Source: a virus. From it: a stretch of 37,590 nucleotides of DNA. The first letter of the stretch is position 1. Each line of letters opens with the position of its first letter. Shown here piece after piece: positions 4,667 to 37,119 of the stretch. The position numbers and the translations under genes were made by a program. Where the stretch lies: IMG/VR virus record IMGVR_UViG_3300048922_000453, positions 1 to 37,590 of that record; one strand, given 5' to 3'. The notes beneath the pieces were generated by a model, which saw nothing but the letters and a program-made list of their open reading frames with translations, had not been told where the DNA came from and searched no databases.

Positions 4667-4978
4667 TTACTTCCTGACAAAGAAAAGAAAGGTACCTGCA
4701 AAGGCCTGGAGAGAACCGGCAGAATAGTCTGTATCACCCGCCGCAACTATCGTGGCGGTGTTGCCTGATATACTTATCCTTCTTCGGCCTTGTGGCGGTG
4801 CGTCCATATTGGCCTGAAAGTTGTAGTCCAGAACATACCCGGGCGGAACAGCAAATGTGAAACTTCCGCTTTTCTGGCCGTTTGTAACCACTAGCGTCCC
4901 TGCTGATAGTATTCTCACTATCCCTGTGTTTGTGTCTCTGCCAGCTGAATCCCATGTTCCGAACCCCCATTTAGCCAT
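4667..4978 (-). CDS. Small tail protein downstream of J
   Basis: A 103-residue beta-rich protein (FGTWDSAGRDTNTG near the start, GTFLFFVRK at the end). Its ATG overlaps the J stop codon in a TGATG junction, so it is translationally coupled to J. The 223-residue gene follows after 2 bp. This arrangement indicates a virion or tail-tip accessory role, but I do not recognise a defined family. Confidence 0.7.
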   Translation of the reverse strand: MAKWGFGTWDSAGRDTNTGIVRILSAGTLVVTNGQKSGSFTFAVPPGYVLDYNFQANMDAPPQGRRRISISGNTATIVAAGDTDYSAGSLQAFAGTFLFFVRK

Positions 4979-7900
4979 CAGAATACTCCCGTCAGCCTTC
5001 CTACTTGGACTAGTGATCCGTCAGCTGATAAAACTGAAAGGCCGGTGCTCTCAAGCTTGCAGCGCCCCTCTCCCGCAACTGAACCATTCATTGAAAATGT
5101 TCCATCTTTATTAAGATTCCATCCAGTAGTTCCGGCCACGTAGTTAGTAGACTGGATGTAGGCAGCGATCATGGCGCTTGTAATAGTCGCTTCACCGATG
5201 AATGCCTGATTGATGATGGTCTGCCCGTTCTGAATGGCAAAGAAGGTCTTCGGTGTTGCACCTACCTGCGACATTACGGCAAAGCGGTCAGCCAGAAACA
5301 GCACCTGCGTCTGCATGCCGGAAGGACTGTTCTCTACGCCAATCCCCATGCCAGCCGCATACTGGCGACCGTTGCTGTCCACGGCGACTTTTACTGAGTA
5401 CTGTGCTGATAGCTTGCCGTTGGTGTCAGCCAGCGCCGTCGAGGTCTGCTGAACAACTGCGGTGTTCTGGTCTACCGTCGCCTGTATCTGTTCAAACTTC
5501 TGAGCATAGGCTTGCTCATTTGTGGCAAGAGTCTGTTTTACCGTCAGAATGTCTGCGCGGTTTTTGCCCGACTCAGCCATCTGATGATCAACAGTTGCGT
5601 CGAGGTTCAGCGCATTCTGCAGCATGGCATCGATGTTGGTATCGACTTTGGCAATGAGCTGCTTACCGGCATCCGTCTTGAGAACCTGCTCTGTGATGTC
5701 GCCCAGCAACGCGGTCGCATCAACACTGCTGGCCCCTTCGACAAACTTCGTCCAGTCGCCAGTATTGCCTATACGATCCACCAGCCGGGCGCGGTACCAC
5801 CGGCGAACGCCAGCGGGCATGGGTCCGTGCTGGTAGCTGACGCCGGGATACGGAACATAAGCCAGAAACTGCGGATTCTGCCCGTCTGCCGTTGTTGCCA
5901 CCTGAACCTCTGTGTAGGAGGTATCACCGGAACCATCAGGAAACGCCCACGTCACGTCAATCGCCCATACCACGTTATCGGTGGCACGGAGATTAACCGG
6001 AGTACCTGGCTTACCAGCCTTGCCCGTCAGCGAAGTTGAGTCAGCATAACCCCACGGAGAAGAAATCTCTGCCGCGTTAACGCCGCGCACTCGCACATCA
6101 TAAACGCCGGTATAGATACCCTGAATGCTGAAACCCTGTGCGCTGGTCTGGCTGACGTTTACCCAGTCGCCCTTATCCTTGCGCCACTGAGCCACGTAGC
6201 TGATAGCGCCCTCAACACGATCCCATGTTACCTGCATCGAGGAGACAGAAAGACCTTGCTCAACAAAGCTGACTTCGCTGATTGTGATGTTGGCAGGTGC
6301 CTTCAGCACACTTATGGGCGTGACGGTGATTGGAGCTGGCTCAATGCGCACACCATCGTCAATGTAGCGGTACTTATTCGGGTCGTGCTGCACACCGGTA
6401 ATGGTAAACGTCCCGTCATCGTTCCCGGCTACTGAGGTGATGCGGAAATACTGGATTGCCAGATTATAGCTGTCGATAGCCCATACCGCTCCCGCCACCG
6501 GCGTGATACGGAAAGAGGTGTTAACGCTGACCGTTTTCTTATCCGCGCTGATGCTGCCGATCGTCCGGGTCTGTGCGGTACCATCCGGCAGGTTTACCAC
6601 CAGCCGATCACCTGCTGCATAATCAACCTGGCGGTCCAGCGTGATGCGCAGGCCGTTAACCGAGCTGATGCGGCCACCGTTCTGTTTACCGCTGCGGAAT
6701 GGGTCTGCCACACCGATAATCTCAGCGGGAATAGGAATGTAACCGTCCAGGCCGACGCCAAATGAAACCGTACCATCTTTGGCGTTGGAGAGAATAGCCC
6801 ACCGCCCGCGTCGATGTGCTTCGCTCTGTGACGTGCAGCCGATGGCTGTCAGGCTCATCTCGCGAACGCCGTAGCGCTGCACCAGATCGGAATCGTAAAC
6901 GCCTTCAACGGTGTCAGAATAGTGATTGACCGGATCGGACCAGCTCGACTGGCATGACGTATAGCGGTTTTTGTAGCTGCCGCCCGCATAAGTGAACAGA
7001 CCATCGATAACGTTCGCCGCGTGGTAAACGAAATCAACATCAACGTTGCCGTCAGAGTCAACCTGCGGCACGTCAGCATTGACGAAAATCTGGCTGTTGC
7101 CCCAGAACGTAATGCCACGGAATATCGCCGCAATGTCCTTCAGAACAGTATACGCATCCTGCTGACTCTGTATGAACACGTTACAGGTAAAGCGCGGCTC
7201 CGTTCCGCCTGCGCCGTCAGACACCATCTGATCGCAGTACTGCGAAATACTGTAAAGCTCCCACTTGTCGATCATGGTGGCATCGACACGCGTCCCCATA
7301 CCAAATATTTTATCCAGCACCAGGTCATAGAAAATCCATGCCGGGTTATCGGTATAGGCGTATTTGAAATCACCCTGCCACGTTCCGGCATAACTACGTG
7401 AAACAGGATCATAGGTTGTCGGCACGCGAACCAGCCGCCCTTTTGGCTTGCACGTTACTTTTGGTGCCTGACCGCTGAACTGACTGGCATCAACCTCGAT
7501 ATACAGCAGCGCGGTATTGGGGTAGCGCAGTTTGCTGTCGATGACCTCTGCGAACGAAAAAACTTTGAAAGCGTTAATAAGCTTTGATGATGAGGAATCA
7601 GCGGTAATTCTACGCACCCTGACTGACCAGCCAGATGTGGCTTTAGGTAAGTCGATGCGATGATCGCGCTGATATTCAGACGTAGTTTTACCGTCAAACC
7701 TTCCGTCCACCACCGTGACCCATGAACCACCGTCAGTTGAGAGATCAATGGCATACTGCGTTACGGTACCGACCATATCGCCATTGTCTTTATACTGATA
7801 CTGAACCGGCAAGCTCAGCTTAATGCGAACGGCATCCAGTGCCAGATTGGTAAACTGGCGGGTCCAGGCGATTGCCTGCGTTACTGCAACTCCAACAGAA

Positions 7901-8196
7901 AGCTCATTATCGACTTCAGGCATACCCTGAATATAGGTCTGGTCCTGCGTACCTTTACGCCAGTCCCACACTACGCCGGTGAAGTTGTAGGTGCCGTCTT
8001 CGTTCGCCAGTTGGGTGTCGTTCAGGTAAATCTGTTGCGCGGTTAAATCACCCTGAATCTCACCCTCTGATATAGCCAGCAGCATTTTTAATTTTGCGAT
8101 AGAAAGCAGATCATCTGGCTGTTCGACCGGAGTATGAGCGCTGCCACCGCCACCACCCTTACTGCCCTGAATCACGGCACCTTCGAGAAGACGCAT
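4978..8196 (-). CDS. J: Host specificity protein J (central tail fibre)
   Basis: This 1072-residue protein forms the tail tip and receptor-binding central fibre. The N-terminal region (MRLLEGAVIQGSKGGGGG, then LLAISEGEIQGD) is characteristic of lambda J-family proteins. Residues about 620-830 contain two fibronectin-III-like segments (ITISEVSFVEQG and GTPVNLRATDNVVWAIDVTW). A helical stretch about 850-930 precedes a DUF1983-like C-terminus with YAAGMGIGVENS and FAIQNGQTIINQAFIG. The length is close to lambda J (about 1130). It has a terminator and an inverted moron immediately upstream, so late transcription must antiterminate to reach it. No break is visible. Confidence 0.95.
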   Translation of the reverse strand: MRLLEGAVIQGSKGGGGGSAHTPVEQPDDLLSIAKLKMLLAISEGEIQGDLTAQQIYLNDTQLANEDGTYNFTGVVWDWRKGTQDQTYIQGMPEVDNELSVGVAVTQAIAWTRQFTNLALDAVRIKLSLPVQYQYKDNGDMVGTVTQYAIDLSTDGGSWVTVVDGRFDGKTTSEYQRDHRIDLPKATSGWSVRVRRITADSSSSKLINAFKVFSFAEVIDSKLRYPNTALLYIEVDASQFSGQAPKVTCKPKGRLVRVPTTYDPVSRSYAGTWQGDFKYAYTDNPAWIFYDLVLDKIFGMGTRVDATMIDKWELYSISQYCDQMVSDGAGGTEPRFTCNVFIQSQQDAYTVLKDIAAIFRGITFWGNSQIFVNADVPQVDSDGNVDVDFVYHAANVIDGLFTYAGGSYKNRYTSCQSSWSDPVNHYSDTVEGVYDSDLVQRYGVREMSLTAIGCTSQSEAHRRGRWAILSNAKDGTVSFGVGLDGYIPIPAEIIGVADPFRSGKQNGGRISSVNGLRITLDRQVDYAAGDRLVVNLPDGTAQTRTIGSISADKKTVSVNTSFRITPVAGAVWAIDSYNLAIQYFRITSVAGNDDGTFTITGVQHDPNKYRYIDDGVRIEPAPITVTPISVLKAPANITISEVSFVEQGLSVSSMQVTWDRVEGAISYVAQWRKDKGDWVNVSQTSAQGFSIQGIYTGVYDVRVRGVNAAEISSPWGYADSTSLTGKAGKPGTPVNLRATDNVVWAIDVTWAFPDGSGDTSYTEVQVATTADGQNPQFLAYVPYPGVSYQHGPMPAGVRRWYRARLVDRIGNTGDWTKFVEGASSVDATALLGDITEQVLKTDAGKQLIAKVDTNIDAMLQNALNLDATVDHQMAESGKNRADILTVKQTLATNEQAYAQKFEQIQATVDQNTAVVQQTSTALADTNGKLSAQYSVKVAVDSNGRQYAAGMGIGVENSPSGMQTQVLFLADRFAVMSQVGATPKTFFAIQNGQTIINQAFIGEATITSAMIAAYIQSTNYVAGTTGWNLNKDGTFSMNGSVAGEGRCKLESTGLSVLSADGSLVQVGRLTGVF

Positions 8197-8207
8197 ATTT
8201 CCCCCAT

Positions 8208-8231
8208 AAAAAAACCACCGGAAGGTGGTTT
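8208..8231 (-). terminator. Leftward intrinsic terminator upstream of J
   Basis: Stem AAACCACC/GGTGGTTT with loop TTCC is followed on the minus strand by a run of T. It separates J from the moron interval and would stop leftward transcripts not modified by Q. Confidence 0.85.
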
Positions 8232-8371
8232 CATTTAGTCACTGTTAAAATATCAGGATTTTTCTTATTTACTTAAGTATGTATGATTAATCGAAATGCA
8301 ACCCAGCAAGTCCTTATCAAAGGCCAAAAGACCATTACAGAGGACTGAAAACTTCAGGGAGAAAAATTTTC

Positions 8372-8602
8372 ATGGCGAAAGAATCTTTTAAATTTCAAGT
8401 AAACACGTCATCTGAGCATCAAACGGTATCTGCGCTGGAGTCTGGCACTGTTAAACAAGAGCTAATTTCTATTGTCGCGAAATTGCCCTTTGAAGAAAGA
8501 ATAGAGTTCATAACTGAATTAAAGGCTTTCAATAACAGTGCAATGAACGAAATTTTAAAGACTGTTGAATACATGGTTGGAACCAAACGGGCTTCTTTTT
8601 AA
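8372..8602 (+). CDS. Inverted moron, small unknown protein
   Basis: A 76-residue acidic-basic helical protein (MAKESFKFQV; LPFEERIEFITELKAFNN) encoded opposite to the late operon, between genes I and J. AGGGAG lies 10 nt before the ATG. The gene is more AT-rich than the tail genes on either side, and a possible TATGAT -10 lies at 8282-8287, although I see no good -35. These are the marks of a moron expressed from the prophage. No signal peptide or membrane segment is visible. Function and family are unknown. Confidence 0.6.
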   Translation: MAKESFKFQVNTSSEHQTVSALESGTVKQELISIVAKLPFEERIEFITELKAFNNSAMNEILKTVEYMVGTKRASF

Positions 8603-8624
8603 CGAGCAGCTTTTACTGCTGACG

Positions 8625-8645
8625 GCGGTTGTATATGCAACCGCT
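8625..8645. other. Perfect inverted repeat after the moron
   Basis: Arms GCGGTTG and CAACCGC flank the 6-base loop TATATG, just after the moron stop. There is no T tract, so this may be an RNA-end or protein-binding structure rather than a classic terminator. Confidence 0.45.
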
Positions 8646-8718
8646 GACAAACTTCTTTGCCAGTGAATTTTTTTCTTCTGAGTAGTTAACAACCGCGTCA
8701 TTTTCGAGCTGGAAACTT

Positions 8719-9342
8719 TCACTGCTGATCGCTGGTAAAGCTTCCCGCGCTGATGATCGCCCCGCCAATTTCACGCGTACCGTAAAGAACCGGAACCGGA
8801 TACCCCATGGCAACGGTATTCACCGGCGCACCGAACGCATAGTTTGGCTTATTGTCCGTGCTGGATGAGGCACCCACGTTGAGCTTGGGTTGCGGCGTCA
8901 GCATCTGTACGACACCACCCAGCAGCATGCTAATACCGATACTGGTCAGTGCTGTGGTTGCCAGGCCGACTGCAGTCGTGGTCCCGATAGCCGCACCGTA
9001 TGCAGCCAGTGACGCACCAGCGGTGAAGAATGCGGCCACAATCGCAACGGCTCCGATGATGATCTGCAACGTACCGCCCCGCTTCGAACCCTCCAGAATC
9101 GGCTCCATCTGAAATTCGGTCGCCGCTGAGGACATGTCGAACTCCTGCAGTCCGATATTATCTTTGCCGCTGAAGAACGCGAATCGCACGCCGTTGAGGT
9201 GGGCGTTTGACACATACTTTTTGAACCCCGGCACCTGTGAGCACATCGCACGCAGCAGCTCCCGCAAATCGGCGACGTGAAACTGGTGCACCTGACCAAA
9301 CATTTTTGCCATCCGGCCTTTTAGTCGCATGGTTTTAAGCAT
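8719..9342 (-). CDS. I: Tail assembly protein I
   Basis: A 207-residue homologue of lambda gpI, needed to assemble the tail tip before J. It has an N-terminal mixed domain (QVHQFHVADLRELLRAM) and a long Ala/Gly-rich hydrophobic stretch (about residues 95-145, including IIIGAVAIVAAFFTAGASLA) typical of this family. The C-terminus PVPVLYGTREIGGAIISAG is also characteristic. It overlaps the end of K by 8 nt, as in lambda. Lambda gpI is 223 residues, so the length is normal. Confidence 0.9.
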   Translation of the reverse strand: MLKTMRLKGRMAKMFGQVHQFHVADLRELLRAMCSQVPGFKKYVSNAHLNGVRFAFFSGKDNIGLQEFDMSSAATEFQMEPILEGSKRGGTLQIIIGAVAIVAAFFTAGASLAAYGAAIGTTTAVGLATTALTSIGISMLLGGVVQMLTPQPKLNVGASSSTDNKPNYAFGAPVNTVAMGYPVPVLYGTREIGGAIISAGSFTSDQQ

Positions 9343-10054
9343 CCATCAGCTCCTTTCTACGCACGATGCGAACGGTACGGTTGCGCCAGTATTCGCCATA
9401 AGGCACCCGTGTAGAGAGGCTCCCGGCGTTATGATGAAGAATGATATTGTTGCCCAGATAGATTGCGGCGTGGTTTGTTACCGGGGCGCTGATGCGCATC
9501 ATGATCATGTCGCCCTCACGCATTTCCGCTGGTTCAATCTCCACAAACCCCTCAGCCTGCCAGTTGTCGTCATACAGATTTTCTTTGCCGTCCACCCACC
9601 ATTCATAATCAACAGACCAGTTTTTCAGAGTGATGCCGTGCTCACGCTGGTAGTAGTCCATAATGAGTGTCCAGCAGTCATTACCGCCAATCAGCCAGGG
9701 GCGACCTGTGTAGTCGCGGTCGGTACGCGGGCTGATAGTGCAGAAGTCGCCATCCGGCCACGACATGATCCCCCACTCCACGCCGGAAAAGTCGCACTGA
9801 ACCCGGTCACGTTCTGACGGGATAAGCTGCGGCACATCGGGGTGCGAATGGATGACCATCAGAATGTCACCCTGCTTTTCCGCTGCCCGCTTATCCTCCG
9901 GCGACAGCGTGAAATGCTCAGTCGGCGATTCAGCGATATTCCTGCAGGGGACGTAGGTCTGGGTCCGGCCAGACTGAATGACCAGACCGCAAGCCTCTTT
10001 CGGGTATTCGGCAGCGACGTGTTCACGTATCGCCTCAAGAATTTTTTTACGCAT
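9335..10054 (-). CDS. K: Tail tip assembly protein K (JAMM + NlpC/P60)
   Basis: A 239-residue two-domain protein. The N-terminal JAMM/Mov34-type metalloprotease domain carries H69-S-H71 and S80-x-x-D83 (HSHPDVPQLIPSERD), so the zinc motif is intact. The C-terminal NlpC/P60 cysteine peptidase has C127 in GGNDCWTL, H195 in TNHAAIYL and H207/H208. In lambda, gpK acts in tail-tip assembly and probably in penetration of peptidoglycan. It starts 2 bp after L and overlaps I. Confidence 0.93.
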   Translation of the reverse strand: MRKKILEAIREHVAAEYPKEACGLVIQSGRTQTYVPCRNIAESPTEHFTLSPEDKRAAEKQGDILMVIHSHPDVPQLIPSERDRVQCDFSGVEWGIMSWPDGDFCTISPRTDRDYTGRPWLIGGNDCWTLIMDYYQREHGITLKNWSVDYEWWVDGKENLYDDNWQAEGFVEIEPAEMREGDMIMMRISAPVTNHAAIYLGNNIILHHNAGSLSTRVPYGEYWRNRTVRIVRRKELMDA

Positions 10055-10056
10055 GG

Positions 10057-10794
10057 TTATTTGCCCTGAAGGTTTGCAGCCGGGAACCCGCCGAATGGCA
10101 GCGGCTGGTCTTCACCAAACCGGGCCTTACAGTCAGCCAGGCGTCCGCCACAAACATCTTTAGACGGGTCATTCGTTGGAGTGCCATCCTTTGCAAAGTA
10201 ACGATTGCCAGCATAATCGCAGCCAGTGCCGGTGCGATACCAGCCGCGCATGCACCAGGTGCATACCGGCGTAATCTGACGTGAAGGCAACTGCAGACTC
10301 TGAATGTCAAAGGGAGAACAGAGTTCAAAATCCACCTGAGCGCGTGTCTCGGATGTTTTCGCATTCACATAAAACAGCTGTACCCGCTCCTCCTGCGGAT
10401 TAGCGTTGGGGTTGCCTGCTGTCCAGTTAGCCGCATCAAGATACTTTGCCAGCGTGGTATGGATGCGCACCTTCGCCTTAACCATGTCGTCAAACTGCAG
10501 ACACAGCGCGGTGACATAGTTGCCCACGTTGCCCACAGACAACTTTGGTGTGGGCTGGGAACCAGTGCTGCTCATCTCCATGCCGGTGAGCTCATACGGA
10601 TGCGGATCGTACTCTTTTCCCTGCCAGATGATTGAAGGGAGGTTTTCTGCTGCGAAAGACTGCCAGCCCTCGGTCGGCAGGTTGTAGGCATGAAAGCGCA
10701 GCACGGTGTCCAGGCCGAAGTCCGTGCCATCAATCTCTATCAGCTGGACCAGACTCCCCGGCTCCAGCGCCTGAATGTCCTGGTTAAAACTCAT
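10057..10794 (-). CDS. L: Minor tail protein L (Fe-S tail tip protein)
   Basis: A 245-residue homologue of lambda gpL. The C-terminal region has the cysteines expected to coordinate an iron-sulfur cluster in this family: CSPF near residue 158, then CTWC, GTGCDY and DVCGGRLADC. The N-terminus (ALEPGSLVQLIEIDGTDFG) is the usual gpL start. It forms the ring between M and J at the tail tip. Between it and M lies a strong leftward terminator, so this segment of the tail operon depends on antitermination. Confidence 0.93.
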   Translation of the reverse strand: MSFNQDIQALEPGSLVQLIEIDGTDFGLDTVLRFHAYNLPTEGWQSFAAENLPSIIWQGKEYDPHPYELTGMEMSSTGSQPTPKLSVGNVGNYVTALCLQFDDMVKAKVRIHTTLAKYLDAANWTAGNPNANPQEERVQLFYVNAKTSETRAQVDFELCSPFDIQSLQLPSRQITPVCTWCMRGWYRTGTGCDYAGNRYFAKDGTPTNDPSKDVCGGRLADCKARFGEDQPLPFGGFPAANLQGK

Positions 10795-10806
10795 TTTTCA
10801 CCCAAT

Positions 10807-10828
10807 AAAAAAGGGCGCATAAGCGCCC
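10807..10828 (-). terminator. Leftward intrinsic terminator between M and L
   Basis: Stem GGGCGC/GCGCCC with loop TTAT is followed on the minus strand by six T. It lies inside the late tail operon. Confidence 0.85.
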
Positions 10829-10846
10829 TGTTGCTGTCGTGACATG

Positions 10847-11188
10847 TCACGGTTCGAAAGATTGTTCGAAGGTAAAGCTGATCTCGGCAAATCCGCCATT
10901 GATAAACTTCGGATTAATCGAATCTGCTTTCACCCGATACAGTTTTTTCTCGCCCCATGGATTTGTCCACCAGAATGAGGTGGTGACGTGGGTTTTCAGG
11001 AACGCCCGGACAGACGCCATAGCGGGCACCTGACCGTTACAGCTCAGCGACCAGCTTTCAGCAGCATCGTTGATCCCTTTCCCGGCAACCTGTTTGTAAC
11101 CATCGCCGTACTGCGCCTGAATGGTGGAAACGCTGAGCTGTTCGCTCGCCTGAATGCGCGTCGCCCAGGTAAATGTATCTGTCGCCAT
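10847..11188 (-). CDS. M: Minor tail protein M
   Basis: A 113-residue tail tip protein of the lambda gpM family (lambda about 109). Features are the start TFTWATRIQAS, the central SWSLSCNGQ and SFWWTNPWGEKKLYRV, and an FTFEQSFEP end. It joins the tape measure end to gpL at the tail tip. It begins 2 bp after the tape measure stop codon. Confidence 0.92.
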   Translation of the reverse strand: MATDTFTWATRIQASEQLSVSTIQAQYGDGYKQVAGKGINDAAESWSLSCNGQVPAMASVRAFLKTHVTTSFWWTNPWGEKKLYRVKADSINPKFINGGFAEISFTFEQSFEP

Positions 11189-11190
11189 AA

Positions 11191-14100
11191 TCAGCTCCGA
11201 CCGCTATAAAGAATTCCGCCCGGTGAAATTTCCTTCTTCAGCCTGTCCGTTATCGTCTGCTGAACGATAGATTTGAGCTGTGAGGCTGCCGCCGAGGTTC
11301 CCGTAGCGGATGCGTCACCGGCCCCGCTTTCCTGCATGATCGTTACCGGGGCATCTACCTGAATAATGGTATTGCCACCCGTGCGGCCACTACCGGGCAG
11401 CGCAGCGGGTCGCTCCGTGGGAGTGTCTACCAGCCCGCCGCTGGCGTATCCGCGCATCATCCCGTAAAGATTTTCAACGCCAATACGCTCGGTGGCCTCT
11501 TTGGTAAAGACGAACTCACCCTTGTGAACCACGCCAGCCGGGTCATATTTTCCACCTGTCCCGGTGAATCCGCCGCCATCGTATGCCTGAAAGCTGGTAC
11601 TCATCCCCATTGCACCGGTACTCCCGGCAGAAGCAGCGGCACCGGCTCCCGCTGCTCCGGCAGCGCCGACTGCAGCCCCGCCAAAACTCATAAAGGATGA
11701 CAGCACTGTTTTAGTCAGCAGTGCCTGCGCGGTCATCTCAATCAGGCTTTTGATAACGCTCTGCGCCAGCGAGGCAAACAGATTTGAAATACTTTCCCGG
11801 AAAGACTGCGTGCCGGTAAGCAAACCGGTCAGGGAGTTAGTCGTTCTCTCCGCCGCCGTTTCCGCCAGGCTCACGATCCCTTTATTCAGTGTGCTCTGCC
11901 CGGCATACAGATTGAGCGCAGCCTGATACTGAGCGTCTGCCGAATCCCGTGATGACTTCTGCATCAGCGCTTCGTACTGTTCCTTATTCAGCCTGCTATT
12001 TTCATAGTAAGCAGTATAAAGGCTCTGCTGCTGCACCAGCTGATTCTGGAGCTGCGCAACCGGATCAACTTCTCCGGCTATGTTGAGCTTTGGCGCGGCA
12101 GCCTGGCTGGCCTGCGCCTGAATCATCTTCTGAGCAGAATCGTTTGCCAGCGTAATGCGGGCTGACTGGTACTCCTGCTCAGTGACCAGGCGGGCGTCAT
12201 ACAGCTCTTTCAGGTTGCGGCTGGCTTCGGACTCCTGACGGATAATGGCTTTAGCCGGTGAGTACTGCTCGGCCAGTTCCTGACGCTGGCGCTGATAATT
12301 AGCCGCATTCAGGGTCAGTACGCGCTGCACCTCCGCCTGACTCACACCAGCAGCTTTGGCATCCTTCAGAATTTTTTCCTGCGATACCTTTTCCTGAAGA
12401 TTGATTTTTTCCAGGCTTGAGGCGTGCGCCTGCTCAATCTCGTTACGCAGCGCAGTAAACTGCTTCAGCGCCTGAGCGCCTTTTTTGTCAGCCTTAGCCG
12501 GGTCCTCTCCGCCCCACGGCGATGCGACTTTACCGGCCTCAGCTGCTGCCGCTGTTGCAGCCTGCACGTCGCTTTTGAGGTTTTTAGCAGAATCAGCAAT
12601 GCCCGTTTTCACCAGGAACCGCGCTTTATCGACGTTCTCCATATTGTCTTTAAGCGTTTGCAGACCGCCGTTCACGGATTCAAGGTCGGCTTCTGCGCGG
12701 GTCTTCCCTTTCTCAACACCGGCAAGCTGACCGAAGGGATCAAACCCCTTCAGGCTGTCCATACGGCTGTCAGCGTCCTGAATTTCCTTAATCAGCTGGT
12801 TTCTCTGCGTGACCTGATTTTCATACTGGTCCTGCAGATCGAGCTGTTTTACTGAAAGCTGCTTGTCCGAAAGCTGCATCAGAGCGGCGGTGGTTTCAAC
12901 CACAGCACCCCTGAGATCGAGTGCAGACTGACGCGCCTGCTTTGCCTGCTCATGGAAATAAAGCAGCGCGGAACCGGCAAGCATCGCCGCACCAACCGGA
13001 CCGCCGATGAGCGACAGCGCACCACGCGCCAGCCCGGACGCAACGGAGGCAGCGCGGGCAGTGACGGAGAGCTGTGCATTAGCCGCCGCCAGCCGCTCTG
13101 TTGCTGCTGTTTCCGCAATTCTGGACTCACGGATGGTGCGGCTCAGCGCGACCTGCTCTTTCTGATAGCCAACATTGATACCCGCTGCGGCGTTTGCCGC
13201 TGTGCGCGTACCCAGATAGCGGGCCTCTTCCTGTGCCTGCTGGCGGGTAGCCTGTGCGGCGGCGATGGTCTGCTTCGCCGTCTCGGCCTGCTGCAAAGCA
13301 TTTTTTCGGACTGCGGCTTCGTTCGCCGCCCAGCCTGAGATATTTTCCCTTAGTCCTGCAGTAAGCTTTGTGGACAGTACGGGAATGAGCGTATAAAGCG
13401 CGACAGAGGCAACGGCGTTAAAGTTATCGGAAAGCGTATTGATGCCTTCAGAAATTGCCTGGATTCCGGAACGCAGAGGTCCGCTGCCAGACTGACCCAC
13501 TTTGATGATCAGCCCTTCAAAAGCGCTGGTCAGCCCCATCAGATCGCCGTTCAGGTTGTTCACCCTTACTGCTGCCTGTTCATGCGCCGTCTGCGTGCCG
13601 GTGAGGGATTTGGTCAGCTCATCAATTTTGCCGCGATTGCCCGTCAGAATAGACGCGGCGTTGATGTTCTCAACGCCAAACAGTTTTACGGCCTGCGCGG
13701 TTGAAAGGTTTTTTCCCGCCAGATTTTCCAGCGCCTTACTGAGCCCTACAACGGACGGTTTGAGCGTTTTATCTGTGCCTTTTTCAAGGCTGAGGATAAT
13801 GTTGCGCAGCGCCGTACCCGCTTCACCCCCTTTAATTTCACGCGACGCCAGCACCTGAATGGCGGCATTCAGCGTTTCAAACCCGATTCCGGCCTGTGCG
13901 GCGGCCACGCCACCATTTTTAATCGCGGCGGCAGTGTCGTTAATTTCGGATGCGCCAAATTTCGCACCGGCTGCCAGGACGTTTATATAACGGTCGGCCT
14001 GCTCAGCACCGGCACCGAACTGATTCAGTGACAGCGCCAGCGTTCTGGTGGCATCCGGCAGCGTGCTGCCGCCCGCCTGAGCCAGCAGCAGTGCGCTATT

Positions 14101-14547
14101 GGTCGCTTTTTGCAAACCATCAGCCGTATCAAGCAGCTCCGGTTTCGCTGACGCCATCAGCTTCAGCGCCTCAACAGCCTGACTGGCGCTGTACTCGGTA
14201 GTGCGCCCCATCTGCTGTGCAGCCGCATCCAGATCACGCAGCTTATTACCGGTTGCGCCGGTAATGGATGACAGGTCAGACAGCGCCTGAGAATACTGCC
14301 GCGATGTCTGGATAATGGTACCCAGTGACAGTCCTACGCCAGCCAGCCCGGCGATCCGCCCTGCCAGTCCGCGAACGGCAGAATTTACGCGCCCGTAAGC
14401 CTCTTCCGTTTTTTTCGCATCGTCCTGCGCCTGTCTGTTGAACTGGCGGGACTGTTTACCGGCGTCGCCGTAGGCACCGACTAGCTGGCTTTTAAAATTT
14501 GCGGCGTTGAGGTGTAACCCTACCGCCAGCGATGCTACGTCAGCCAT
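11191..14547 (-). CDS. H: Tail tape measure protein H
   Basis: This 1118-residue protein sets tail length and is the scaffold for tail-tube polymerisation. Residues about 60-360 match the TP901-type tape-measure core (YSQALSDLSSITGATGN, QMGRTTEYSASQAVEAL, FGASEINDTAAAIKNGG). Hydrophobic segments follow at about 380-400 and 505-530 (SGLARGALSLIGGPVG). The rest is long coiled coil, with a lambda-type C-terminus (FTGTGGKYDPAGVVHKGEFV). Its ATG overlaps the stop of the T frame (TAATG), so it is coupled to G-T. It is uninterrupted. Confidence 0.95.
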   Translation of the reverse strand: MADVASLAVGLHLNAANFKSQLVGAYGDAGKQSRQFNRQAQDDAKKTEEAYGRVNSAVRGLAGRIAGLAGVGLSLGTIIQTSRQYSQALSDLSSITGATGNKLRDLDAAAQQMGRTTEYSASQAVEALKLMASAKPELLDTADGLQKATNSALLLAQAGGSTLPDATRTLALSLNQFGAGAEQADRYINVLAAGAKFGASEINDTAAAIKNGGVAAAQAGIGFETLNAAIQVLASREIKGGEAGTALRNIILSLEKGTDKTLKPSVVGLSKALENLAGKNLSTAQAVKLFGVENINAASILTGNRGKIDELTKSLTGTQTAHEQAAVRVNNLNGDLMGLTSAFEGLIIKVGQSGSGPLRSGIQAISEGINTLSDNFNAVASVALYTLIPVLSTKLTAGLRENISGWAANEAAVRKNALQQAETAKQTIAAAQATRQQAQEEARYLGTRTAANAAAGINVGYQKEQVALSRTIRESRIAETAATERLAAANAQLSVTARAASVASGLARGALSLIGGPVGAAMLAGSALLYFHEQAKQARQSALDLRGAVVETTAALMQLSDKQLSVKQLDLQDQYENQVTQRNQLIKEIQDADSRMDSLKGFDPFGQLAGVEKGKTRAEADLESVNGGLQTLKDNMENVDKARFLVKTGIADSAKNLKSDVQAATAAAAEAGKVASPWGGEDPAKADKKGAQALKQFTALRNEIEQAHASSLEKINLQEKVSQEKILKDAKAAGVSQAEVQRVLTLNAANYQRQRQELAEQYSPAKAIIRQESEASRNLKELYDARLVTEQEYQSARITLANDSAQKMIQAQASQAAAPKLNIAGEVDPVAQLQNQLVQQQSLYTAYYENSRLNKEQYEALMQKSSRDSADAQYQAALNLYAGQSTLNKGIVSLAETAAERTTNSLTGLLTGTQSFRESISNLFASLAQSVIKSLIEMTAQALLTKTVLSSFMSFGGAAVGAAGAAGAGAAASAGSTGAMGMSTSFQAYDGGGFTGTGGKYDPAGVVHKGEFVFTKEATERIGVENLYGMMRGYASGGLVDTPTERPAALPGSGRTGGNTIIQVDAPVTIMQESGAGDASATGTSAAASQLKSIVQQTITDRLKKEISPGGILYSGRS

Positions 14548-15157
14548 TACATTAACGCCCTCATTACGGCGTCACACTGCTGATCCACGCTGTGCGTGGG
14601 CGTGCTCTGCCTGGTGTCGTTTGCGGTGTTTGCGGATTGTGGTTCGGAGCGGGTCAGGATGCCCTGCTGTAGAAAGTAAGCTCGCCAGTGGTTCAGCGTA
14701 TCGCACGGTAATGCGGCTATGACTGACGGGTCAGGCTCACCCCACCTGTCAGCCAGCCAGAAGATCAGCTGCAGCCATGACGAGCCGGTCAGTTTTTTTC
14801 GGCGGCGTCCAGTTTGCCAATGGCATGCGTTTTGACGCGTTCAATAGCGGCCATCAGCGCCGGGTTATCGTGAGCGTCCAGCAGCTCCGCTGCAGTCGGA
14901 AGCAGTTCAGGCTTGATGGCTGAACCATCAGGATTAACCAGGCTGTCGAGAACCAGCTGGACGCTCATTTCTGAAATTGCACGGATATTGCCGGTCGCCT
15001 GCGCCGCATCAAGCTCTTCCTCGTAGCGGATAAGCTCACCGGCAGTACGGCGGCGGATGTATACCTGAGCGCCCAGCAGCTCTGTTTTGATGGCGGTAGA
15101 CTTAGGCTGTAGCAGAACTGCTTTTAACGTGGCCGCACTGAATTTTTTCTCGGACAT
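14547..15157 (-). CDS. GT: G-T fusion tail chaperone by -1 frameshift
   Basis: Reading G to A-AAA-AAC (bases 14798 to 14792 on the minus strand), three bases before the G stop codon, and slipping back one base opens a further 81 codons. They start LTGSSWLQLIFWLADRW and end MRALM, with the stop overlapping the tape measure ATG. The product is about 203 residues. In lambda and HK97 the rare G-T product bridges tape measure and tail tube protein during assembly. The extension is not an ATG-started reading frame and is visible only by joining the two frames. Confidence 0.87.
14789..15157 (-). CDS. G: Tail assembly chaperone G
   Basis: The 122-residue unshifted product (MSEKKFSAATLKAVLL to GKLDAAEKN), the abundant partner of G-T in tail assembly; it is absent from the mature tail in lambda. 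It lies between the tube protein and the tape measure, the conserved position. Its final codons GAA-AAA-AAC form the frameshift site. Confidence 0.9.
   Translation of the reverse strand: MSEKKFSAATLKAVLLQPKSTAIKTELLGAQVYIRRRTAGELIRYEEELDAAQATGNIRAISEMSVQLVLDSLVNPDGSAIKPELLPTAAELLDAHDNPALMAAIERVKTHAIGKLDAAEKN
14792..14798 (-). promoter_or_regulatory. Programmed -1 ribosomal frameshift heptamer
   Basis: A_AAA_AAC in the zero frame of G fits the X_XXY_YYZ rule. The zero-frame TGA follows immediately, and the -1 frame is open to the tape measure start. Confidence 0.85.
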
Positions 15158-15212: not shown

Positions 15213-15665
15213 TCAGGAGCCTGCGACTACGCCCCACTCGATGTTATTCTGTTTACCCTGAACGGTAATCTGAATCACCTCACTTGCTGGCGCGGTGATT
15301 TCATTCATCTGCCAGCCGGACAGCGCCAGTACCATGTTGGCGGTGCGACCATTCGGCAGTTCAACGTAGAACTGGACCGTCTGGCGGTTTTGCGCGGCAT
15401 TCAGGAAGTCTGCAAAATCGGTATTAGCAGGATCATCAATGAAGCCCAGCGATTTTTCCGGGCCTTCCGGCAGGTCAGAAATAAACTGTTTGCTCTTATC
15501 AATCAGCGTGGTGCAGTCCACAAAGCTGCCGGTCTGGCCGGTAGCGCCCAGCGCCTTACAGTTAATCAGCGGCTTCATCGCTGAGACAGCGGCGCCGGAT
15601 GGCCCCCATTTCACTACGGTTCCTGCAGGCAGCATCGCGTATTCTGGCGAAGTTTTATCAGCCAT
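15213..15665 (-). CDS. V: Major tail tube protein V
   Basis: A 150-residue lambda/HK97-type tail tube protein with MLPAGTVVKWGPSG near the start, the KALGATGQTGSFVDCTTLID segment, and PNGRTANMVLALSGWQMNE towards the end. It polymerises as hexameric rings to form the tail tube. It is the first strictly tail gene after the neck genes and is followed by G/G-T. The 47-bp gap to G contains a small GCCGCC/GGCGGC hairpin without a T tract. Confidence 0.92.
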   Translation of the reverse strand: MADKTSPEYAMLPAGTVVKWGPSGAAVSAMKPLINCKALGATGQTGSFVDCTTLIDKSKQFISDLPEGPEKSLGFIDDPANTDFADFLNAAQNRQTVQFYVELPNGRTANMVLALSGWQMNEITAPASEVIQITVQGKQNNIEWGVVAGS

Positions 15666-15698
15666 GACTTTCTCTCTCTTTGAAGTTGGTAGCGGCTG

Positions 15699-16100
15699 CT
15701 ACCCGTTGTTTTGAATGCGGTCCCGTATTTCTACCGCGAGGATTCGGAGAACGCGGGATTTGTTGTAATCCAGCGCCGGGCGAATGAAGGGATCAGGAAT
15801 CTGCTTAACCGTACCGAACTCCTGAGCCAGTGCCTTGATGTAATGCTGCTTACTCGGACCGACCCGCAGCACGACAACGGCGTTACCTTTAGCCCGGGTT
15901 GTTGAACGGATTTTGATAGAGTCACGCATGTGCGGCCCTTTCGCTGACTCGTCATAACCCGCATGCTCTTTCATATCCTGCTCAACCACCTGGAGAGCTG
16001 CCCGGCCAGCTTCACGTAACACCTTTGTTCCGGCTTTTTCACCCAAGGCAATCAGCTGGCGCTCAAGCTCATCAAGACCTGTAACTTCCATTCTCAGCAT
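15699..16100 (-). CDS. HK97 gp10-family neck/tail completion protein
   Basis: A 133-residue protein of the HK97 gp10 family. Typical features are EVTGLDELERQLIALGEKAG, AGRAALQVVEQDMK, and the C-terminal YIKALAQEFGTVKQIPDPFIRPAL. It acts in head-tail joining or tail completion. ATG at 16100 has GAGG 7 nt upstream; another ATG lies three codons in. It follows the DUF3168-like gene by 2 bp in a compact neck operon. Confidence 0.88.
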   Translation of the reverse strand: MLRMEVTGLDELERQLIALGEKAGTKVLREAGRAALQVVEQDMKEHAGYDESAKGPHMRDSIKIRSTTRAKGNAVVVLRVGPSKQHYIKALAQEFGTVKQIPDPFIRPALDYNKSRVLRILAVEIRDRIQNNG

Positions 16101-16102
16101 GC

Positions 16103-16486
16103 TCAGACCTCACTGAAGTAGATAATAAAATCTCTGGTCAGGCGGTACTGCACTGCGTTGTTGGGCAGCGTGAATTTATCCTGTTGCAGCGAACCGCGCT
16201 CAACGTACTGAACCGGATAGCCGCCAATATCACCATACCGGATTCCCTTCCACATCTGCCAGAGTTGAGCATCAAGCGCCAGCAAGCCCGAGTAGTCAGA
16301 GACTTTCACAAAGGAAATCTGGAATCGTCCCGCCACCAAAGACGTTCTGACAAGACCGCTTTCAATCTCGGGGTCAGAAATACGCTGATAGGTAATCCCT
16401 TGTTGCTCAGTGTCAGGAATCAGAAGTGGATAGACTTCCAGTTCGGAAAGTGACTGAAGGGATTTGTAGATGCCTGATTCAATCAT
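16103..16486 (-). CDS. Tail terminator-like neck protein (DUF3168 type)
   Basis: A 127-residue protein beginning MIESGIYKSLQSL and ending TRDFIIYFSEV, with VYPLLIPDTEQQGITYQRIS, the usual pattern of DUF3168/gpU-like tail terminator proteins. I place the start at 16486 because AAGGGA is then about 9 nt upstream and the gene overlaps the preceding one by 8 nt; the longer frame to 16564 runs deep into the upstream gene. Order and size fit an HK97-like neck cassette. Confidence 0.8.
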   Translation of the reverse strand: MIESGIYKSLQSLSELEVYPLLIPDTEQQGITYQRISDPEIESGLVRTSLVAGRFQISFVKVSDYSGLLALDAQLWQMWKGIRYGDIGGYPVQYVERGSLQQDKFTLPNNAVQYRLTRDFIIYFSEV

Positions 16487-16814
16487 GACGCACATCCCTT
16501 TCAGCTGTGATGACAGCACGATCCCGGCTGCTGCGGTCAACAGCCCTGATTGTGTAAATCTCACTCCCCCAGCTTATTTTCCAGTCCGTCTGAACATCGC
16601 TGCGTGACCGGATGGTGAACTGCCATGTCTCCACAATCTGCTGCTGATCCATACTGCGTATTTTGCGGTTTGATATGTTTTCAGCTTTAGCCCATATAAA
16701 TGGCGAGCTGATTACAACTTGCCCCTGTAACACTTCACCCAGCGGCCCGCGCTCTGACTCAGTGCGCTGAACCCTGATGCGTTTATTGAGCTCGCCAGCA
16801 GCCAGGCCTGTCAT
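16479..16814 (-). CDS. Head closure / head-tail adaptor protein
   Basis: A 111-residue member of the phage head-tail adaptor (head closure) family: AAGELNKRIRVQR at the start, WAKAENIS, and SWGSEIYTIRAVD near the end. It normally plugs the connector after DNA packaging. It overlaps the connector gene by 4 nt (ATGA). It is intact although the portal it normally serves is absent from this prophage. Confidence 0.87.
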   Translation of the reverse strand: MTGLAAGELNKRIRVQRTESERGPLGEVLQGQVVISSPFIWAKAENISNRKIRSMDQQQIVETWQFTIRSRSDVQTDWKISWGSEIYTIRAVDRSSRDRAVITAERDVRHD

Positions 16815-17137
16815 AGGCCATATATCCTGTAAGGCTGAAGGAGCGCATCGACCGCCAGAGGCATTTCGCTGGTATTTTTGTCGCTGACCGCTTCGCGGTT
16901 TGCGTACCAGTGGCCGACCAATAGCAATATGACCAGGCGAATATCATCATCAAGCAGAAGACGATCCTCATCGGTATCAAACCCGGCATCAGCATTGGTT
17001 TCATAGAGATTTCGGCGTGTCCATTTCTCAATGTGCCGCTTTGCCGCTCCGATGTAGATTATTAACAGCGAGTCCTCACTGTTATCGTCAGCATCAATAC
17101 GGCAATGCTCTCTGACCGTTTCAATTGCAATGATCAT
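16811..17137 (-). CDS. Head-tail connector protein (HK97 gp6-like)
   Basis: A 108-residue gp6-like adaptor that forms a ring under the portal. Features are TVREHCRIDADDNSEDSLL, YIGAAKRHIEKWTRRNL and LLVGHWYANREAV. The four-base overlap with head closure shows coupling. It lies directly after the terminase/capsid fusion gene, where it would follow the capsid gene in an intact HK97-like phage. Confidence 0.9.
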   Translation of the reverse strand: MIIAIETVREHCRIDADDNSEDSLLIIYIGAAKRHIEKWTRRNLYETNADAGFDTDEDRLLLDDDIRLVILLLVGHWYANREAVSDKNTSEMPLAVDALLQPYRIYGL

Positions 17138-17179: not shown

Positions 17180-18484
17180 TTAGCTGCCTGATCCAGTCAG
17201 AGAGCCATACACAAACGCTTCAGGACGATACACCGCCAGCGCCAGACGCTCTTCACAACGGATAGTGATCATGTTTTTCTCAAAGTCGTCGGCGTTTTCG
17301 CTGGAAACCACAACGTTTGCTTCTTCGCGGTCGAAAATCTGCGCACCGGAATTGAACGCACCCGTCAGGAATTTACCCAGGAACTGAGCAGCTTCGGTGG
17401 CTACGACTGGCAGGCCCCACAGGGTAGGCGTGGTCAGCTGTGATGGATTAGCCAGAATGTAACGCCCCAGCGTATCCTTGCTCAGTTCGATTTTCGCCCA
17501 GTCGGTAAAGTGCAGCACGTGACCGGACGCCGGAAAACGGGCAAGCTGCGCCTGCAACATAGCCAGACGAAGAATGTCGATCCCCGTCTCATTCTGAACA
17601 GCAAACGCTGCACTGAATGGCTTGGCCTGAGGAATGATGCCCGCCAGATGAGCGCCGGTGCCGTCACCGAAAAGAATTTCCTGCTCTTCAACGTAGGAAA
17701 GACCGTAACGCATCTCCGCATCTACGGTGGACTGCAGCTGAGCAAAGTCATCCAGAATCTGCTTTGAAGCCTTGAACATGTGAGCAATCGTGCGCACAGC
17801 CGTGGTCTTCTCGGCGAATTCGATTTCGCTGTAAGGTTTGGTGGTGTTTTCAGGCACCACTGAAGCCTTGTTGGTGAAGCCCGTCTGCTGAACATAATAA
17901 ATCGTGTTGGACTGCGTGCGGCCCGGTGCGATCAGGTCACGGATGAAAAGCCGCTGCTTAGGCGCGGTGTCAATACCGGGAAGGCGCTGAGGTGCCACAA
18001 TCTGACCCGGCACATCAACAGTGGTAAGCGCGGCTTTCACAGGTACCGAAATACGCTTATTACCTTCCAAGCTTGAGCGGATACCCGACGAAACTGTTGA
18101 TTTGGCATTTTTACGTGCCACTTCGTTATAAGCGGTACGGAACCGGCGAACCATTACCGGATCGCCATCATCATCCATAATCTGTTTGCCGCTCATTTCA
18201 TCAATCAGCGGAATGGTGAATCCAAAAAGGTTTATCAGGATGAAGATGTGCCAGGGCATCAGCTCAATCGGCTTGCCCGCCAGAGCACCTTTCACATGCG
18301 GAACGAAGTTATAGAAGTCGAGAATGTGCTGGGCGCGGTCCTCACTGAAGTAGATACCGCGTTCCGGCCCGTGTTCTAAATCATTGAGGAATCTCTGGCA
18401 CGCCAGGCGCACCAGTTCGCCAGCAACGATCTCGCCAGCCAGCACGCTTTCTGCGTACTGAATACCAGCCTGAACAGTTGCCAT
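17180..18484 (-). CDS. In-frame fusion: terminase large subunit N-terminus to major capsid C-terminus
   Basis: The 434-residue frame is chimeric. Residues 1-130 are the N-terminus of an HK97-type TerL (RFLNDLEHGPERGI, MPWHIFILINLFGF, RRFRTAYNEVARKNAKST), ending at the Walker A. From about residue 136 (SSLEGNKRI onward) it is the mature part of an HK97-type major capsid protein: QRLFIRDLIAPGRTQSN, RTIAHMFKASKQILDD, LFGDGTGAHLAGI, LWGLPVVAT, FEKNMITI. Missing are the rest of the TerL ATPase and nuclease, the portal, the protease and the capsid delta domain. Probable cause is a deletion of about 3-4 kb, estimated from usual gene sizes. The frame is open across the junction (about 18065-18094). 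The product should be neither a working terminase nor an assembling capsid subunit. An assembly error is the main alternative. Confidence 0.9.
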   Translation of the reverse strand: MATVQAGIQYAESVLAGEIVAGELVRLACQRFLNDLEHGPERGIYFSEDRAQHILDFYNFVPHVKGALAGKPIELMPWHIFILINLFGFTIPLIDEMSGKQIMDDDGDPVMVRRFRTAYNEVARKNAKSTVSSGIRSSLEGNKRISVPVKAALTTVDVPGQIVAPQRLPGIDTAPKQRLFIRDLIAPGRTQSNTIYYVQQTGFTNKASVVPENTTKPYSEIEFAEKTTAVRTIAHMFKASKQILDDFAQLQSTVDAEMRYGLSYVEEQEILFGDGTGAHLAGIIPQAKPFSAAFAVQNETGIDILRLAMLQAQLARFPASGHVLHFTDWAKIELSKDTLGRYILANPSQLTTPTLWGLPVVATEAAQFLGKFLTGAFNSGAQIFDREEANVVVSSENADDFEKNMITIRCEERLALAVYRPEAFVYGSLTGSGS

Positions 18485-18487
18485 TCA

Positions 18488-18961
18488 TCATTTGCGCTTT
18501 TTAAGAAACTCTTCCAGAGGATCGGCTTCGGCTGGCCCGGATGCGCCAACCTTGGAACGGCTGGCCGGGGTCATGCCAAATTCAGAGAGCATTGCCCGGA
18601 TGCGCTTCCACGCATCGGACTTCATCACTGCTGCCGGATGTGCTTTAACAATATCCTCACCAGTAGCTGACACCGTTTTATAGGTGTAGCCCTCTTCAGT
18701 AAGAACATCGCAATGTTGCCGGTACTCGGTGTAAGCCTCGATCAGCAACTCAAGCGCTTTACCGTCGAGAGTGGTCATCACTCCGACAGCATCAAGTTCT
18801 TCGCCGATTCGTTTGAACCAGTACTTCCCCATCTTGTCCAGATGCTTCGGAATTGGGGGTACCCCAGAAGGGGGTTTTGGCTCTTTTTTGTTTACTGCCC
18901 GTTTTGATGGGTTCCCCTTCACCAAAGCCAGATGTGTCGGGGTTTTCGGTGGTCCTGGCAT
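18488..18961 (-). CDS. Terminase small subunit (P27/HK97 type)
   Basis: A 157-residue DNA-recognition subunit of the packaging terminase. The start MPGPPKTPTHLALVKGNPSKR is typical of the P27/HK97 gp1 family, followed by helices with WFKRIGEELDAVGVMTTLDG and LLIEAYTEYRQ. It ends immediately before the TerL-derived fusion gene. It looks complete, but its large-subunit partner is truncated. The interval upstream of it is the expected position of cos. Confidence 0.92.
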   Translation of the reverse strand: MPGPPKTPTHLALVKGNPSKRAVNKKEPKPPSGVPPIPKHLDKMGKYWFKRIGEELDAVGVMTTLDGKALELLIEAYTEYRQHCDVLTEEGYTYKTVSATGEDIVKAHPAAVMKSDAWKRIRAMLSEFGMTPASRSKVGASGPAEADPLEEFLKKRK

Positions 18962-19181
18962 AATCGAAAACTCCTATTAATAACTGGTTGGGGGACCCCA
19001 AAAAAAGTTTTCTAACCTGCGGCGGTGTGAAAAAGGGTTAGGCGGCGGTCCTGAAAGGCGAAAGGGGGGAACTTTCGACCCGCCCTCCCCCTTCAAAAAC
19101 CACTCAAATGATAGTCATTCTCATCTGAGACGTGACCGCACCAAAACGGTGCACCCTGACAGCATGAAACGATAACCATTA
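18962..19181. other. Probable cos / terminase-binding interval
   Basis: A 220-bp non-coding gap lies between HNH and terminase small subunit genes, the place of cos in HK97-like genomes. Inside it, 10-bp inverted repeats TCAAATGATA (19104-19113) and TATCATTTGA (19180-19189) flank a second palindrome, GCACC/GGTGC at about 19138-19153. The repeats could be terminase-binding sites. They also resemble Fur boxes. The exact nick sites cannot be read from sequence alone. Confidence 0.55.
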
Positions 19182-23105: not shown

Positions 23106-23576
23106 CTACCTCAAACACTGCTCATAGATATATTGCTGCAAAGCGGCTATTTGCTTTCCGGCGAGCTCGATTCGCTCTCTGAGGGTGAAATAATCCCGTT
23201 GAGATGCGTCAGTAAGTCGGTCGCTGGCTGCATCATCCACGCCGGTGGTGCCGGAGGCGTTACCTTTCGGGCAGATTGCGTTGAGGCGCAGCCCGCATTT
23301 ACCAGAACTAACGCACTGCTGAAGAGAATCAAGCTTAGCTTTGGCATCTGCCAGCTCCTTGGTGTATTTCGCATCAAGCGCGTCCACATCACGCTGTCTC
23401 GTCTGCATATAAGTGATGGTGTCATTAGCCAGCTTTAGGCTGCTGCTTGCCGTGTCACGCTGCGCCTTGTAGTCAATGGCATTGCCTCGGTAATAAAGCG
23501 CGAATGCTACTGAGGTGGCTAGTAGCAGCAGAACCAGCAGGATGAGTGCAGTGATCGCTTTAGCCTTTAAGGTCAT
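23106..23576 (-). CDS. Rz: Spanin inner-membrane subunit Rz
   Basis: A 156-residue i-spanin. It has an N-terminal membrane anchor (ALILLVLLLLATSVAFALYY) and a long periplasmic coiled coil (KAQRDTASSSLKLANDTI and DALDAKYTKELADAKAKL). It links to Rz1 to fuse inner and outer membranes in the last step of lysis. ATG at 23576 is preferred to GTG at 23582 because GGAG then has a 7-nt spacing. It overlaps the lysozyme end by 17 nt and carries Rz1 inside it in another frame. Confidence 0.92.
   Translation of the reverse strand: MTLKAKAITALILLVLLLLATSVAFALYYRGNAIDYKAQRDTASSSLKLANDTITYMQTRQRDVDALDAKYTKELADAKAKLDSLQQCVSSGKCGLRLNAICPKGNASGTTGVDDAASDRLTDASQRDYFTLRERIELAGKQIAALQQYIYEQCLR
23147..23347 (-). 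CDS. Rz1: Spanin outer-membrane lipoprotein Rz1 (nested in Rz)
   Basis: A 66-residue lipoprotein wholly embedded in Rz in another frame. It has a signal MPKLSLILFSSALVLVNAGC with lipobox VNAGC, and a proline-rich stretch TPPAPPAW typical of Rz1. AAGGAG lies about 7 nt upstream of the ATG, which settles the start. It is the outer-membrane half of the spanin complex. Confidence 0.9.
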   Translation of the reverse strand: MPKLSLILFSSALVLVNAGCASTQSARKVTPPAPPAWMMQPATDLLTHLNGIISPSESESSSPESK

Positions 23577-24069
23577 CGACACTCTCCGCCAGACACAATG
23601 AGCGCTCCATGTCTCGCCGGTTCATCAACCCGCGCCACTTCATACCACCGGCATATACCCAACGGCGCAATTCCTCACACGCACCCTCATGATCACCCGC
23701 GTTGAGCTTCTTCAGTAAAGTGGATTTTGAAAAGGCACTGGTGCCTACGTTGTACGTGAAGCTGTAAAGCGCTGCTCGCGGATACTCACCGAGCGGGACT
23801 TTAACCAGTGAATCGACTGTCTTTTTAACGGGCTTCAGGTCATTCCAAATCAGGCGATCACATTCTCGGTCGGTATACTTCCTGCCTTTGATGATGTCGG
23901 TGCCGGTGTGTCCGTCGCAGACAGTCCAGACGCCTGCCACATCTTTGTAAGGCTCGTACACCCTCCCCTCTACCCCATCTTTACCACCGAGGAACACCGT
24001 AGCGATAGCCATAGCTCCGCCACCCGCGACAGCAATAAGCTTATTGCGCAGGCTGTTTGACATAGCCAT
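23560..24069 (-). CDS. R: SAR endolysin (GH24 lysozyme, R21 type)
   Basis: A 169-residue muramidase with an N-terminal signal-anchor-release helix (NKLIAVAGGGAMAIATVFLGG), rich in Gly/Ala as in P21 R. The catalytic triad follows E-x8-D-x5-T: E34, D43 and T49 in the EGRVYEPYKDVAGVWT stretch. C51 lies next to the site as in R21. It is exported by Sec, held inactive at the membrane and released when the pinholin collapses the potential. The start at 24069 has GAGG 8 nt upstream. It follows the holin by 3 bp. Confidence 0.94.
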   Translation of the reverse strand: MAMSNSLRNKLIAVAGGGAMAIATVFLGGKDGVEGRVYEPYKDVAGVWTVCDGHTGTDIIKGRKYTDRECDRLIWNDLKPVKKTVDSLVKVPLGEYPRAALYSFTYNVGTSAFSKSTLLKKLNAGDHEGACEELRRWVYAGGMKWRGLMNRRDMERSLCLAESVDDLKG

Positions 24070-24072
24070 GGG

Positions 24073-24315
24073 TTAATCCTCGTTGATGGCTGCCGCGGTA
24101 GGCCAGCGTTGAAGGGCTTTGATTTGCGCCAGCGTAGCCTTTCGCTTGTAATACCAGTTGATGCCTAGAGTGAACAGCGCCACCAGAATACCGGCCAGGA
24201 CGCCAACAGCACTCCATTCATCGGGACTCAGCCTGGTCAGCAGACCGTTAGCAATTGTCCCGGCAGATGCGCCGTATGCCGCGCCTGATGCCAGTTTGCT
24301 CATATCGATACTCAT
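24073..24315 (-). CDS. S: Pinholin, S21 type
   Basis: An 80-residue class II holin with two membrane helices: a Gly/Ala-rich first (KLASGAAYGASAGTIANGLL) and a second (WSAVGVLAGILVALFTLGINWYY), then a basic tail. Like P21 S it has two nearby Met codons, at 1 and 5 (MSIDMSKL), which could give antiholin and holin forms. ATG at 24315 has GGAGGTGAT directly upstream; the longer frame to 24624 crosses the late leader terminator and is rejected. Pairing with a SAR endolysin is the usual combination. Confidence 0.9.
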   Translation of the reverse strand: MSIDMSKLASGAAYGASAGTIANGLLTRLSPDEWSAVGVLAGILVALFTLGINWYYKRKATLAQIKALQRWPTAAAINED

Positions 24316-24512
24316 ATCACCTCCGTGATTACGGTCGGTGCTGTCGGTAGTCAGAAGAAAATTGCGCAACACCACGGCGTCAAAAGTGTGTGTGGAGACT
24401 GATTGGCGTGCGCAAAAACGAAAAAAGGCCGCTCTTTGGCGACCTCTTTGAATGGAAACCCTGACGCAATAGCGGTAACTGCCTTGCCCGTCGGCAACAG
24501 GGGTAATTTTTC

Positions 24513-24558
24513 TATCCCCTACAAGGGATAATCTTTTACTCATCCCTTTCAGGGGATA
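24513..24558 (-). repeat. Two related palindromes in the late leader
   Basis: TATCCCCTACAAGGGATA (24513-24530) and CATCCCTTTCAGGGGATA (24541-24558) are each palindromic, and the second matches the reverse complement of the first at 15 of 18 positions. The transcript between late terminator and holin can therefore fold in two exclusive ways. Confidence 0.7.
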
Positions 24559-24565
24559 AGCCAAT

Positions 24566-24591
24566 AAAAAAGCCCCGCCAGCTGGTGAGGC
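24566..24591 (-). terminator. Late leader terminator (tR'-like)
   Basis: Minus-strand stem GCCTCACC/GGCGGGGC with loop AGCT (one mismatch, one G-T pair), then TTTTTT. It lies between Q and the holin, where a lambdoid late transcript stops unless Q modifies the polymerase. Confidence 0.8.
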
Positions 24592-24695
24592 TGCGAGGCT
24601 TTCGGACATCCACTTAATATGCAACTGACCCGCAATCAGCGAATCAGATAATTCTTTTTAGTGCGGAAGACTCATAAAATCCCCACTATGAGGAG

Positions 24696-37077: not shown

Positions 37078-37119
37078 TTGATTAAAATCCTGATGCAGCA
37101 GGAATGTGTGGAGAAGAAT

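Follow-up and report, generated by a model that had tools for sequence, protein, structure and literature searches.

What is to be made of a single uninterrupted reading frame that begins as a large terminase subunit (TerL) and ends as a major capsid protein (MCP)? Such a frame lies between the small terminase subunit (TerS) gene and the connector genes of a viral sequence from the IMG/VR collection (record IMGVR_UViG_3300048922_000453), analyzed here over positions 1 to 37,590 and referred to throughout as the window. It had been proposed that the hybrid replaces the head module of the phage. The frame might indeed encode a working protein, but it might also be a fault of assembly or the chance product of a deletion.

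The fused frame and its provirus

The frame opens with an ATG on the minus strand and reads through 434 codons without a stop (Table 1). PHROGs profiles assign its residues 2-137 to a TerL family (phrog_10517, E 3e-43) and residues 119-433 to a major head protein family (phrog_10, E 4e-71), and the Pfam Phage_capsid domain spans residues 162-427. The open reading frame, PHROGs and Pfam thus agree with the original prediction that an N-terminal part of TerL continues, in frame and uninterrupted, as a mature-type HK97 MCP. The junction had been placed at about residue 136, close to where comparison with an intact relative (L002, below) now puts it, after residue 134, with the capsid portion starting at MCP residue 104.

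As a large terminase the product is incomplete, the ATPase core beyond Walker A and the nuclease domain both being gone: Pfam locates the ATPase at residues 112-266 and the nuclease at residues 274-552 of the intact TerL of L002, and in residues 1-134, which are all that the window keeps, neither domain is left. The capsid portion, by sequence, carries an HK97-fold mature domain. The closest solved structures to the fusion are HK97-type capsid proteins, and the mature HK97 gp5 chain aligns over fusion residues 156-430, with fusion residue 156 matching chain residue 6; the MCP maturation site would be expected near fusion residue 151, about 16 residues past the joint. The scaffold domain of an HK97-type MCP is not part of the fusion, MCP residues 1-103 having been deleted, and no separate scaffold protein was recognised among the window ORFs scanned.

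Table 1. Coordinates of the fused frame, its parts and neighbouring provirus genes in the window
Feature	Position	Strand	Evidence or remark
Tyrosine integrase	1..1131	+	Start codon is the first position of the record
Tail chaperone, tape measure, minor tail proteins, J-like tip, intact	4978..15157	-	
Tail terminator, tail completion (gp10-like), major tail proteins, intact	15213..16564	-	
Head closure Hc1, intact	16479..16814	-	phrog_25, Phage_HCP
Head-tail adaptor Ad1, intact	16811..17137	-	phrog_40, Phage_connect_1
Fused ORF, 434 aa: TerL residues 1-134 + MCP residues 104-403	17180..18484	-	ORF call, PHROGs, Pfam, L002 comparison
MCP part, HK97 fold, scaffold/delta domain gone	17183..18082	-	Phage_capsid E 2e-54; solved capsids including HK97 gp5
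Deletion joint, 4-nt microhomology TATC	18080..18083	-	L002/L180 comparison
TerL N-terminal part, ends shortly after Walker-A-like ARKNAKST	18083..18484	-	phrog_10517
Terminase small subunit, intact	18488..18961	-	phrog_83 E 4e-51; 99.4% aa identity to L002
Lysis cassette: holin, endolysin, Rz-like spanin	23106..24624	-	

Apart from the fusion, the record has the look of a complete lambdoid/HK97-like siphophage provirus, with genes for a tail fibre, Cor, glycosyltransferases, Q, a methyltransferase, a replication gene, CII, Cro and CI, and an early left operon, in addition to those of Table 1. Downstream of the fusion, PHROGs, Pfam and the comparison with L002 all find the connector and tail genes intact, and the tail genes are full length relative to L002 as far as the L002 locus extends. 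The start codons of the end genes coincide with both ends of the record, and the integrase stands at that end of the provirus where the tail fibre is encoded, away from the left operon. Its position had raised the idea of a circularly permuted record, which was dropped since a relative of the integrase in a Kosakonia genome (L082/L162) lies on the same, tail side; on that ground we infer a provirus trimmed at gene boundaries.

Several genes away from the head region were also noted. Beside the lysis genes, window positions 22619-22858 encode a 79-aa protein with an Acb2/Tad1 hairpin domain, a possible anti-CBASS/anti-Thoeris sponge. A 609-aa cytosine methyltransferase (26926-28755) has family matches in three separate stretches, as if a domain of ~300 aa had been inserted in it, and a 505-aa protein (28752-30269) combines a ParB-like N-terminal part with a methyltransferase-like C-terminal stretch. 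The left operon ends with a PrtN-type pyocin activator domain (37078-37374), where an excisionase would stand.

The joint measured against intact relatives

L002 (IMG/VR 3300031416_000151) served as the reference; it is collinear with the window and has the head block in place, and its identity to the window is 99.3% on the TerL side (6.2 kb) and 94% on the capsid/tail side (9.4 kb). Its block encodes a TerL of 576 aa, a portal of 434 aa, a ClpP-like protease of 282 aa and an MCP of 403 aa. The window is without L002 bases 6229-10038, which is exactly 3,810 bp and divisible by 3; the breakpoints fall at TerL codons 134/135 and MCP codons 103/104, so that the remainder of TerL, the portal, the protease and MCP residues 1-103 are missing. 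A second close relative that has kept the head block, L180, is likewise 3,810 bp longer at the site of the joint, and its TerL side has 99.4% DNA identity to window 19026-18080. The TATC at the joint occurs at the TerL breakpoint in L180 and at the MCP breakpoint in L002, and microhomology of at least 4 nt is expected for 1.9% of random breakpoint pairs; a hairpin at the joint is not notable (z -1.2). Comparison with related intact phages, which had been suggested as a way to find the deletion ends and any microhomology, thus delivered both. No intact sibling bearing the window's own MCP allele was found when one was searched for.

The missing pieces do not lie elsewhere in the window, again as predicted for the C-terminal part of TerL, the portal, the protease and the delta domain. 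When the L002 TerL, portal, protease and MCP were used as tblastn queries, the window returned matches only to the beginning of TerL and to the C-terminal portion of the MCP, the protease and the TerL C-terminal part being absent from the rest of the record, and a portal was not found by HMM anywhere in it. The breakpoint removes the MCP scaffold domain almost exactly, a mild coincidence that we count against reading the event as a simple deletion.

Alternatively, the phage may truly be intact and TerL fused to MCP by the assembler, and the junction is indeed confined to one record, taken from a public virus collection. The deletion ends, however, have just 4 nt in common, too short for collapse of a de Bruijn graph, and within 150 nt of the L002 breakpoints no shared exact word exceeds 8 nt, the one of that length being located elsewhere; repeat-mediated collapse was ruled out, there being no repeat at the deletion ends, and the record is free of Ns. 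Nor is the joint a seam between genomes of unequal similarity, or a mosaic boundary between two phages, since the step in identity to L002 lies instead near 18.9 kb, where identity drops from ~100% to ~96% inside TerS (window 18900-19000). That step is a natural mosaic boundary, near the deletion joint but separate from it. An assembly artefact is unlikely on this evidence.

The record is very probably an HK97-like lambdoid siphophage provirus hit by one apparently recent deletion of 3,810 bp, via illegitimate recombination at the 4-nt TATC, with the fusion as its by-product. Replication slippage or end joining would have produced such a deletion, and the ATPase core and nuclease of TerL, the portal, the ClpP-type maturation protease and the scaffold (delta) domain of the MCP would all have been lost in one step.

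Chance and selection in the open frame

A frame that stays open across such a junction had been taken as unusual for a random deletion. This proved wrong: when one breakpoint was drawn at random in the L002 TerL and one in its MCP, 32.4% of the pairs (a fraction of 0.324) gave an open in-frame fusion, and with about a third of such pairs leaving the frame open, no particular cause need be sought for it. Compared with L002, the MCP part of the window has 67 synonymous and 6 nonsynonymous codon differences, with zero amino-acid changes specific to the window, and the substitution pattern in TerS, the connectors and the tail genes is similar. Since the window displays no protein-level decay, the deletion is probably recent, and the simplest reading is that it is too young to have left any mark. 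The absence of decay is also compatible with a fusion retained by selection.

In that second case the fusion would be retained and expressed as a functional protein, for instance as a scaffold-less capsid subunit that poisons the procapsids of superinfecting HK97-like phages, or as a new packaging or shell protein, and the provirus would be a headless tail-and-lysis element. Its frame has stayed open, unlike that of L085 (below), its identity to an intact MCP is 95% at the amino-acid level over the matched stretch, and amino-acid changes are not in excess, all of which would suit a maintained protein. Against this, an open frame had a 32% chance of arising, the fusion is common to no relatives, recency accounts for the conservation, and assembly in HK97 relies on the scaffold domain and the portal (PMC10275583). 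We therefore give a functional fusion hardly any credence. In the literature searched, no description of a TerL-MCP fusion was found. As for a replacement of the head module, the proposal holds insofar as the head genes are gone and the fusion occupies their site; it fails in that no functional replacement is supported, what is seen being a plain deletion in one record. On the deletion reading, the 434-aa fusion would owe its open frame to a one-in-three chance, would be without packaging activity, and would probably misfold, aggregate or remain unassembled; most probably the hybrid is a side product that serves no purpose.

Related loci and the fate of the provirus

The gene order, MCP, connectors and tail module of the window are those of HK97-like siphophages (L002, L180 and L003), in which TerS is followed by TerL, portal, ClpP protease and MCP, but the 3.8-kb TerL-portal-protease-scaffold block of these phages is not in the window. 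Escherichia phages CharmingMan and mEp235 also have parts in common with it. Among the 142 loci with enough upstream sequence, the window included, TerL-portal-protease-MCP is kept in 137 relatives, and three more keep portal-protease-MCP with a related TerL undetectable. The block is lost in the remaining two, the window and a prophage of Pantoea sp. GD03673 (L085), which was the sole candidate for a second carrier of the fusion. It was ruled out as an independent, frameshifted deletion: the loss in L085 begins at TerL residue ~99 and stops close to the C-terminus of the protease (L085:9540-11622), overlapping that of the window but with other ends, its MCP is complete (402 aa, with the scaffold domain), its TerS and TerL are both frameshifted, and it has no fusion frame. 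To judge from sequence, the loss in L085 is an independent event, more decayed than that in the window. Exact and degenerate junction searches found no match in any other viral contig, and no phage record matches the junction contiguously; protein searches of viral contigs, GTDB species genomes and phage records found no other full-length fusion, which was also absent from the family-level genomes searched (two largely overlapping sets of 392 genomes each).

F-type (flexible) tailocins have an intact siphophage tail and lysis genes without a working head, as do, so far as its genes suggest, the contents of the window. Were the provirus domesticated to such a headless tail particle, loss of the head module would have been advantageous and tails and lysis retained; the connector, tail, tip and lysis genes are all intact, and an overlapping segment was lost independently in L085. 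However, F-type tailocins are lineage-conserved and lack integration, replication and packaging genes, whereas the window retains genes for integration, repression and replication together with TerS, its integrase, CI, Cro, CII, replication gene, TerS and MCP remnant all being still present. Furthermore, no relative has the same deletion, L085 appears decayed, and two cases among 142 are no sign of a maintained lineage. Domestication is very unlikely.

Defective (cryptic) prophages, by comparison, have likewise lost packaging and portal genes while retaining integrase and tail genes, and a survey found that incomplete prophages preferentially lose portal and terminase genes whereas integrase and tail genes persist (PMC7744054). 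In the window the integrase, a CI-like repressor, Cro, CII, Q, lysis and tail genes are recognisable, and the virion-essential portal, protease and TerL C-terminal part are lost. It differs from cryptic prophages generally in having one recognised lesion, which created an open hybrid frame. Overall, this is ordinary prophage decay.

If induced, the provirus could presumably still excise, replicate, form tails and lyse its host. Procapsid formation and DNA packaging should no longer be possible, since HK97 assembly requires the scaffold domain and the portal (PMC10275583) and what remains of TerL has little of the ATPase and none of the nuclease; the provirus would be defective unless a helper phage provides heads. 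An annotation that labels the hybrid as 'terminase' or 'capsid' could let such a defective provirus pass as complete. Some caution is also due before function is read into an open hybrid of two conserved phage genes, which looks striking, yet is what about a third of random deletions yield. The locus nevertheless offers a clean case, with a joint known to 4 nt, of a provirus that has lost its packaging and head genes and retained those for tail and lysis.
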